Shown: positions 1,273-27,081 of the stretch, in pieces
How positions within the stretch are numbered: the first letter of the stretch is position 1
Layout: every line of letters starts with the position of its first letter
Notes under the pieces: model-generated
Databases searched by the model: none
Seen by the model: only the letters and a program-made list of their open reading frames with translations
Told to the model about the DNA's origin: nothing
From: Halosolutus halophilus
GTDB lineage: Archaea > Halobacteriota > Halobacteria > Halobacteriales > Natrialbaceae
Direction of reading: 5' to 3'
DNA length: 64,000 bases
NCBI RefSeq assembly: GCF_022869805.1
Contig: NZ_CP094974.1
Location: 4,402,001 to 4,466,000, forward strand
Made by a program: the position numbers and the translations under genes

Positions 1273-2859
1273 TTACTCGACGCCGATGTTGTTGAAGTGC
1301 GTCGACAGCGGGATGATAGCGGAATCCGGATGCGACTGGAAGTCGCTGATGTAATCCGCTACGCCGTAGCTGTTTTTCATGTTGTAGGCGGGCAGGTGCA
1401 CGCGGTCCTCGAGGATCGTGTTCGTCGCCTCGACGTACATCTCGCGGCGCGTCTCCTGGTCGGGCTCTTCGCGCGCGTCCATGATCAGCTGGTCGACCTC
1501 GTCGTTGCCGTAGTACGTTCCGTTCGTGGAGCCCTCGAGTTCCTGCGCGAACAGGTAGTAGGTGAACGCTTCCGGATCGGGCGACCCGGACCACCCGAGG
1601 GTGTACATGTTGTAGTCGTCCTCGCTCCCCGTGGCGTACAGGTCGAGGAAGGTACCCCACTCGAGGCGCTCGAACGTGACATTGTTGAAGCCGACCTCCT
1701 TGAGACCGTTACTCACGGACTCGCCGATCGCTTCGCGCATGTCGTCCGGGGGAACGATGATGTTCCACTCGTAATCCATGCTGACGCCCGCGTCCTCGAA
1801 CAGCTGCGTGGCCTGGTCGATGTCGCGGTCGTGCGGGACCTCCGCCCACTCGTCCTGGGGGAAGTCCCAGGCGTCGACGATCGACTGCGGGAACGGGCTG
1901 TACTGGCGGACGCCGGCGGGCTCGACGAAGCTCTCGATCGCGTCGTCCATCGAGAACGCGTAGTCGACGGCCTCGCGCACCTGCGGATCGGCGGTCGGCC
2001 CTTCGTTACAGTTGAACGCCAGGTAGAAGTACCCGATGCCGAGGGTCGATTCGATCGACGCGCCGTCCATGTTCTTGACGTCCTCCCACAGCTGTGGTGG
2101 GACGGTCTCGATGATGTCGCTCTCGCCGGTCTCGAGTCCGGTCACGCGCGTGGACTGTTCCTCGACGAAGTCGAACTCGACCCCCGAGATGTTGGGGTCC
2201 TGTTCGCCCCAGTAGTCGTCCCAGCGCTCGAGCAGAACGTACTGTCCGTCCTCCCACTCGACCCACTGGAACGGGCCGCTACCGACCGGATCGTGACCGA
2301 ACTCTTCTTCGTTTCCTTCGCGTTCGGATTTCGGCACGATCGACGCGCCGATCGTGGTATTGAACGCCGCGTAGGGGTATTCGAGGTTGAACTCGACGGT
2401 CTTGTCGTCGACTACCTCGATGCTTTCGATCATGTTGACCTCGGCGGCGTTCTCCGTCTCCTCGTTGACCGGCGCCTCGAACGAGTACTTGACGTCCTCC
2501 GCGGTGACGCCGTCGCCGTTCTGGAACGTCGCTTCGTCTTTGATCTCGGCCGTCCAGGTCGTCCCGTCGTCGCTCACTTCCGGCTCGCCGTCCGCAAGCA
2601 CCGGGACGAGGGAGTCGGTCGCGTCCGCGTTGTACGTGTACAGACCCTCGTAGATCTGCTCGTTGACCTGCGCGGTCGGGACGCCGTTCGCGACGATGGG
2701 GTCGAAGCCGTACGCCCACCCTTTCTCCTGCGTGAACAAGAGTTCGTTATCGCCGCTGTCACTGCTCCCGCCGATGCACCCTGCGAATGTTACTGCGGAG
2801 GCAGCAGCGCCCGAGGCGAGGAGTCGCCGTCGGGACAGTTCTGACACGTGATGTGACAT
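1273..2859 (-). CDS. dppA: Peptide ABC transporter substrate-binding lipoprotein
   Basis: Extracellular solute-binding protein of family 5 (DppA/OppA type), 528 aa. I chose the ATG at 2859 because the protein then begins MSHHVSELSRRRLLASG, a Tat signal with an RRRLL core, followed by a hydrophobic stretch and the lipobox FAGC near residue 28. It is therefore exported folded and lipid-anchored, as is usual for haloarchaeal binding proteins. An in-frame upstream start at 2949 would add 30 residues that bury the signal. The body carries family features such as GDGVTAEDVKYSFE and HDPVGSGPFQWVEW. A TATA-like box 27-34 bp upstream of this start supports it. First gene of the dpp operon; the ligand is not predictable. 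Confidence 0.9.
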   Translation of the reverse strand: MSHHVSELSRRRLLASGAAASAVTFAGCIGGSSDSGDNELLFTQEKGWAYGFDPIVANGVPTAQVNEQIYEGLYTYNADATDSLVPVLADGEPEVSDDGTTWTAEIKDEATFQNGDGVTAEDVKYSFEAPVNEETENAAEVNMIESIEVVDDKTVEFNLEYPYAAFNTTIGASIVPKSEREGNEEEFGHDPVGSGPFQWVEWEDGQYVLLERWDDYWGEQDPNISGVEFDFVEEQSTRVTGLETGESDIIETVPPQLWEDVKNMDGASIESTLGIGYFYLAFNCNEGPTADPQVREAVDYAFSMDDAIESFVEPAGVRQYSPFPQSIVDAWDFPQDEWAEVPHDRDIDQATQLFEDAGVSMDYEWNIIVPPDDMREAIGESVSNGLKEVGFNNVTFERLEWGTFLDLYATGSEDDYNMYTLGWSGSPDPEAFTYYLFAQELEGSTNGTYYGNDEVDQLIMDAREEPDQETRREMYVEATNTILEDRVHLPAYNMKNSYGVADYISDFQSHPDSAIIPLSTHFNNIGVE

Positions 2860-25425: not shown

Positions 25426-27081
25426 TCAGACCGCGTCCGTGCCGGTTTTGCCGGTCCGGATCTGGTACGCGCTTTCGACGGGCGTGACGAAGATTTTCCC
25501 GTCGCCTGGCTCACCGGTGTGTGCGCCCTCGCTGATCGCGTCGACGACGTCCTCCGCGGGGATGTCCGCGACGACGCACTCGATCTTGACCTTCTGGTGG
25601 AGATCGACCGTGTACTCCTCGCCGCGCCACTGCCCCTTTTTCGCGGGCTGGGAGCCGCGCCCGGAGACGTTCGTGACGGTCAGCGAGGGGGCTCCGGCGT
25701 CCGCCAGCGCCGTCTTGATCGCGCCGAGGCGATCGGGACGGACGATGGCGGTGACCATCTTGATCTCGCCGCCGTTCGGGTTGCCGCCGTCGGGACGGAG
25801 CACCTCGGTTCCGGCCGTCCCGCCGTCGGTCGCGACCTCTGGCTTACCGAACTCGGGGTAGGTGTCGACGCCGTGTTCGGAGACGTCGAGTCCGTCGCGT
25901 TCGTGTTCGGGCGTGACGCGAGCCTGTCCGACAGCTTTGAAGGCGAACCAGATGAGAGCGGTCGCACCGACCGTCCACGCGGTGATGATGAGGACGCCGG
26001 CGACCTGCGCGACGAACGCGTTCGCGACGCTGTCCACGACGCCGGGTGCGGCGACGAACGGGAACAGCAACGTCCCGAGAATCCCGGCCGAGCCGTGGAC
26101 GGGGAACACCGCACAGACGTCGTCGATCTTCAGTTTCTGTTCGACGAACTCGAAGACGATCGGGAGTTGCGCACCGGCGAGCCCGCCGACGACGAACGCG
26201 CCCCACCAGGCGGCGGTGTCGGGAATCGCGGTGATGCCGACGAGACCGGCCAGCAGTCCGTTCGCGACGTACAGCGTGTCGACCTTGCCGGTCTTGAGCC
26301 AGGCGACGAATCCGGCCCCCATCGCACCGCAGGCCATCGAAATCGTGGTGGTCATGGCGACGCGGCCGAGCTGGTCGCCGAGGAACGCGCCCTCGCCGAC
26401 GATGGCGGAGGTGCCGACGTTGAAGCCATACCAGCCGAACGCGAGGATCAGCGTGCCGAGGACGGCGAAGGTCAGCGAGTGACCGGGGATGACGTTCGCG
26501 GAGCCGTCGTCGTTGTAGCGGTCCATGCGCGGGCCGAGCACCCACGCGGCGGTGAGACCGGCGATGCCGCCCATGCCGTGGACGATCATCCCGCCCGCGA
26601 AGTCGGCGAAGGGCGTCCCGGTGAGCGTCTCGATGTGTCCGCCGGCCCACGTGATCCCGGTGACGACCGGGTAGATGACCGCGGCCAGCAGGAAGGTGTA
26701 GGTGACGTACGCGCGGAGCTTCGCGCGACCGGCGACCGCCCCGGAGACGATCGTCGCCGCAGTCATGGCGAAGACGGCACCGTACAGCCAGCCGATCCAG
26801 CTGCTGGCGTCACCGGTGAACGCGGGTTCGAAGCTACCGCCGGCGACGACGCTCTCGACCCCGACGCCGATCAGGAAGAACACCGTCACGCCGACGCTCC
26901 AGGTCAGCAGGTTCTTCGTCAGCTGGTTCGCCACGTTCTTCGAGCGCACCTGCCCCGCCTCGAGCATGGCGAAGCCGGCGTGCATGAAGAAGATCAGGAA
27001 CGTGGCGACCAGGATCCACGTGTTGTTGATCGCCTCGATCAGCATCTCCGGATCCGACTGCAAGAGCGTCGACTCCATCAC
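25426..27081 (-). CDS. amt: Ammonium transporter Amt fused to a PII (GlnK) domain
   Basis: 551-aa fusion. Residues about 10-415 are an Amt/Mep/Rh channel with eleven helices: [20 protein letters not shown], and the pore twin histidines in [12 protein letters not shown] and [12 protein letters not shown]. Residues about 416-445 are an acidic and glycine-rich linker. Residues about 446-551 are a full PII domain: [20 protein letters not shown], the T-loop tyrosine in [15 protein letters not shown], and the C-loop in [20 protein letters not shown]. In most prokaryotes Amt and GlnK are separate proteins; here the regulator is tethered to the channel it blocks. A TATA-like CTTATATTAG lies about 135 bp upstream. 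Confidence 0.95.

Follow-up and report, generated by a model that had tools for sequence, protein, structure and literature searches.

Can an ammonium channel and the PII protein that plugs it be one polypeptide, and what follows when this is the only PII protein of the cell? The question is raised by a gene of Halosolutus halophilus within a stretch of 64,000 nucleotides (the window), for which an earlier note had proposed that the channel (Amt) is covalently fused to its regulator GlnK. The proposal was borne out: one uninterrupted frame contains both domains (table 1), and both score over their Pfam cut-offs, with 318 bits for Ammonium_transp (PF00909, cut-off 23.2) and 94.3 bits for P-II (PF00543, cut-off 25). 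No kinase or other catalytic C-terminal domain was found in the Pfam search, Amt and P-II being the only families above cut-off. The match to the amt subfamily model of NCBIfam (TIGR00836) is full-length and falls slightly under the curated cut-off (330.9 and 343.3 bits, respectively). Translation likely starts at the ATG at 27078 rather than at the GTG at 27081, because the former is preceded at the appropriate position by a perfect GGAGGTGA. The linker follows the Amt tail motif YPEF and is acidic and glycine-rich.

Table 1. Features of the Amt-PII fusion gene (positions in the window)
Feature	Positions	Strand	Residues	Remarks
Amt-PII fusion gene	25426..27081	minus	551 aa	one open frame, no stop
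Shine-Dalgarno sequence	27093-27086	minus		perfect; ends 7 nt before ATG 27078; from the sequence
Ammonium channel domain	25858..27018	minus	22-408	Pfam and conserved pore residues
Amt C-terminal tail	25849..25905	minus	393-411 (19 aa)	conserved; homologue comparison
Linker	25765..25848	minus	28 aa	two DGG motifs; predicted mostly disordered
PII/GlnK domain	25447..25761	minus	441-545 (Pfam span)	Pfam
T-loop	25600..25659	minus	PII positions 36-55	with Arg47 (pore plug) and Tyr51; predicted flexible

Family searches of the 5.06-Mb single-contig genome hit a single P-II and a single Amt, and this frame accounts for both. The earlier statement that no separate GlnK gene is seen nearby thus holds for the whole genome, and the suggested search for a second, free GlnK found none. 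Two glutamine synthetase genes are present. The GlnD domain (GlnD_UR_UTase) gave no match genome-wide, while in the control 8 out of 14 genomes were matched, three of them over the cut-off.

The residues expected of a working channel and a working PII protein are retained. The ligand-site residues Q39, K58, G87, D88, K90, and R103 are all present in the window protein. Among 133 fused homologues, Q39, R47, K58, T83, G87, D88, G89, and K90 are invariant, including the pore-plugging Arg47 of the T-loop (133/133), and R103 is kept in 131. Haloarchaeal PII, whether fused or free, has Gln at position 101 (Arg in E. coli GlnK). Variability in the fused PII is lower in the T-loop columns (0.22 bits) than elsewhere in the domain (0.70 bits). 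One relative (locus L037, genome G347) carries a 15-residue insert after IECVV in its fused PII, shortly past the T-loop and outside the T-loop itself. In the channel, D160, F161, H168, and H329 are invariant across 78 fused homologues; by equivalence to the E. coli residues we take H168 and H329 to be the twin histidines of the pore and D160 to be its conserved aspartate. A single-chain AF2 model based on a 78-sequence alignment (without an alignment the model was uninformative, pLDDT 42) is confident for both domains, displays flexibility in the linker (398–430) and the T-loop (474–494), and gives no fixed arrangement of the domains (pTM 0.72). The modelled Amt part matches AmtB, including entries of the AmtB-GlnK complex, and the PII part matches GlnK2 of Haloferax mediterranei.

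The T-loop tyrosine requires a distinction. The earlier note had described it as intact, which is correct for the T-loop as such and for Tyr51 but not for the position equivalent to E. coli Tyr46, which is Trp in the T-loop alignment. The emphasis on this tyrosine is doubtful as far as a switch is concerned: position 51 is Tyr in 120 and Phe in 13 of the 133 fused homologues, and the tyrosine is probably not the switch since no GlnD was found in the genome. Phe51 occurs in none of 41 free PII proteins, and its limitation to fused PII is consistent with a lack of need for uridylylation.

The best reading of these data, with a probability of roughly three in four, is a genuine single-chain Amt-GlnK in which the classic plug has become intramolecular and is controlled by ADP, ATP, and 2-oxoglutarate, because the pore, ligand-site, and pore-plugging residues are all kept. 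Archaeal GlnK has the corresponding properties, as ADP favours the complex with Amt and MgATP with 2-oxoglutarate breaks it (PMC8395244, PMC3198391); in Hfx. mediterranei, GlnK is found with AmtB following an ammonium shock (PMC3831643), and a small protein, sP36, is a further regulator of archaeal Amt (PMC10714827). The Amt trimer would consist of three chains, whose PII domains would assemble into one PII trimer beneath it, on flexible linkers. At low 2-oxoglutarate or with bound ADP the T-loops with Arg47 would enter the pores and ammonium uptake would stop, and with MgATP and 2-oxoglutarate the T-loops would move off and the channel would open. The tether would keep the local concentration of PII in the millimolar range (estimated at about 2–13 mM for the 28-residue linker, an order of magnitude from a simple polymer chain formula with an assumed separation), so that control would lie with the ligands and not with GlnK abundance or uridylylation. 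The trimer geometry, the pore blocking, and the ligand switching are inferred; a PII trimer built into each channel trimer and blocking within the molecule, both put forward in the earlier note, are plausible from the conserved residues and the E. coli complex. The single chain fixes the stoichiometry, which could aid structural work on gated ammonium transport.

PII is usually viewed as a mobile hub that reports the nitrogen status to many targets and whose capture by Amt acts as a signal in its own right. Most of the sampled genomes of the Natrialbaceae encode no PII other than the one attached to the channel, so a role as mobile hub seems impossible, and the question arises how soluble targets of PII, glutamine synthetase among them, are served. 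One conceivable answer, to which we assign a low probability, is that with an open channel the tethered PII also recruits glutamine synthetase to the membrane and activates it there. Haloarchaea with a single PII and a single Amt might then possess a membrane hub whose T-loops either close their own channel or, when it is open, dock glutamine synthetase, with entry and assimilation mutually coupled and no diffusible PII signal. This would fit a genome in which the sole PII is fused while two glutamine synthetase genes exist, the activation of glutamine synthetase by GlnK in Hfx. mediterranei (PMC3831643), the binding of GlnK to glutamine synthetase through the same T-loop in M. mazei (PMC10651883), and the location of the fusion gene of Monoglobus next to glutamine synthetase III. 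However, nothing in the sequence points to a glutamine synthetase at the membrane, its regulation by PII may simply be lost, and no nitrogen-assimilation partner is among the direct neighbours of the window gene, which are an EamA-type transporter, a class-III aminotransferase (hemL-like), and a hemB-like gene, with nitric oxide reductase farther off.

About equally improbable is that the fusion is a precursor from which proteolysis of the linker or internal translation frees GlnK, which would restore normal two-protein behaviour. The linker is long, of low complexity, and predicted to be disordered, and a few relatives have detached PII copies beside the fusion, but its sequence and length vary freely among the homologues and no conserved cleavage motif was seen in them. 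Internal translation was unsupported by Shine-Dalgarno scoring of 134 fused and 41 free genes: an internal GlnK start with a match of at least 6 was found in 29 out of 41 free PII genes and in 1 out of 134 fused genes. Since the start typical of free glnK is lost in 133 of the 134 fused genes and the Met that opens the PII domain varies to Leu among fused homologues, internal initiation of GlnK from a Shine-Dalgarno sequence is not a conserved feature of the fusions.

Compared with the intramolecular plug, it is very improbable that the PII domain has lost sensing and now serves as a structural or stabilising appendage; the fixed 1:1 tether takes away its mobility and Tyr51 is replaced by Phe in some fused homologues, but the nucleotide, 2-oxoglutarate, and pore-plug residues are invariant in the fused proteins. 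A frame error in sequencing or assembly that merged two overlapping genes, as a one-base slip could do given that in the split relatives that were read (except two Halosimplex pairs) glnK begins before amt has ended, is ruled out, since the frame is also uninterrupted in two congeners (G389 and G398) and at 133 related loci, which come from many laboratories and have in-frame linkers of differing length (20–68 residues), and since the fusions in Bacillota are annotated as a single CDS.

The rarity that the earlier note implied did not hold. With fusions called from frame length alone (an open frame of about 475 amino acids or more through the PII match), which may put the tallies off by a few, PII was fused in 97 out of 103 PII-containing genomes of the same family (90 fused only, 7 fused and free, 6 free only; 111 genomes surveyed), and an order-level sample of 111 genomes, each at least 90% complete, contained 101 genomes with PII (68 fused only, 3 fused and short, 30 short only). 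Fusions were found in 9 of the 11 families of the order-level sample. Among the named carriers are Natrinema, Natrialba, Natronorubrum, Halorubrum, Halorussus, Halonotius, Haloplanus, and Natronomonas. At the loci that were read, the long frames held both domains with one exception (L176, in a genome that also has a true fusion). There, what had looked like PII fused to a protein other than Amt is a stop-to-stop frame crossing hemB out of phase, and a free PII copy lies at its end. Among the 150 matches listed from the phylum sample, no open fusion was found outside the haloarchaea, and matches there to both domains are interrupted by stop codons, which is expected of adjacent genes. Pfam-confirmed fusions were identified in Bacillota, in Enterococcus raffinosus (WP_222227351.1) and Monoglobus pectinilyticus (WP_320691151.1). 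The fusion is thus not unique, and in many haloarchaeal families it is the norm.

The split amt-glnK pairs indicate how a fusion could form. The stop codon of amt overlaps the start codon of glnK (ATGA, or ATG with TGA five bases on), so a small frame change would fuse the pair, and a GGAGGTGA-like site for glnK sits within the amt tail, where it codes for GGE. In a bootstrapped tree of 84 Amt sequences the label fused or split changes 13 times, with 11 changes forced by well-supported branches, and in a wider quick tree of 117 sequences it changes 11 times, with 8 changes forced. Several origins of the fusion are supported, because fused sequences occur twice within an otherwise split second type of Amt (L170/L171 and L047/L168/L169) and again in bacteria; within the main Amt type the Amt tree alone does not separate gain from loss. 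Two Halosimplex loci (L119 and L144), placed amid fused relatives, encode a separate GlnK with a DGG-rich, linker-like N-terminal extension that ends in PNDGEIKM, which looks like the secondary split of a former fusion. Repeated fusion, and apparently some fission, amount to a natural experiment that could show for which of its functions PII must be free.

Further arrangements were observed beside fused genes. At L031 and L032 (genomes G282 and G359) a split amt-glnK pair of a second Amt type is directly followed by an Amt-PII fusion, so that both forms adjoin. Detached PII copies adjoin the fused gene at L005, L026, L176, and L177, and at least one of them, that at L176, still bears the linker-like sequence TDGGKPNDGEIKM. 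In Halovenus carboxidivorans (L107, positions 1965-2561, plus strand) a second PII beside the fusion has an N-terminal hydrophobic helix of its own that resembles a membrane anchor, followed by a DGG linker, so that this PII seems to be held at the membrane with no channel attached.

Full-text searches of the accessible literature turned up no account of a naturally occurring Amt-PII fusion; a prior mention is possible in subscription reviews, which were beyond reach. Tremblay and Hallenbeck (2009) are apparently cited for Amt modules joined to other domains (in PMC5764959). The fusion was overlooked rather than hidden, because Pfam readily detects the domain pair and NCBI labels the fusion genes of Bacillota "ammonium transporter." These bacterial fusions share the domain order of the haloarchaeal fusion in one CDS but differ in their Amt part (about 38% identical), their linkers, the lack of Tyr51, and their position on a separate branch of the tree. 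An Amt core with additional C-terminal sequence or an additional domain is likewise found in the Ks-Amt5 histidine kinase (6EU6, PMC5764959) and in Sd-Amt1 of Shewanella denitrificans (8QJ3, 8QJ4, 8QPF), although the Amt part acts as a sensor or receptor in these proteins (Ks-Amt5 has lost transport), whereas the fused domain of the haloarchaea is expected to regulate transport. The closest solved PII structure is the ATP-bound GlnK2 of Haloferax mediterranei (PDB 4OZJ, 4OZL, 4OZN), which is almost identical to the fused PII in its T-loop, B-loop, and ligand residues but is a free soluble protein. The AmtB-GlnK complexes (E. coli, PDB 2NUU/2NS1; Hfx. mediterranei AmtB1-GlnK) belong to the same families and have the plug and the pore residues in common with the fusion, in which their 3:3 stoichiometry is also expected, but the fusion is one chain without a free PII pool, cytosolic release, or a detected GlnD. 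Overall, the parts and the expected plug are already known, and what appears to be new is a PII protein permanently joined to the channel as the only PII detected in the genome.
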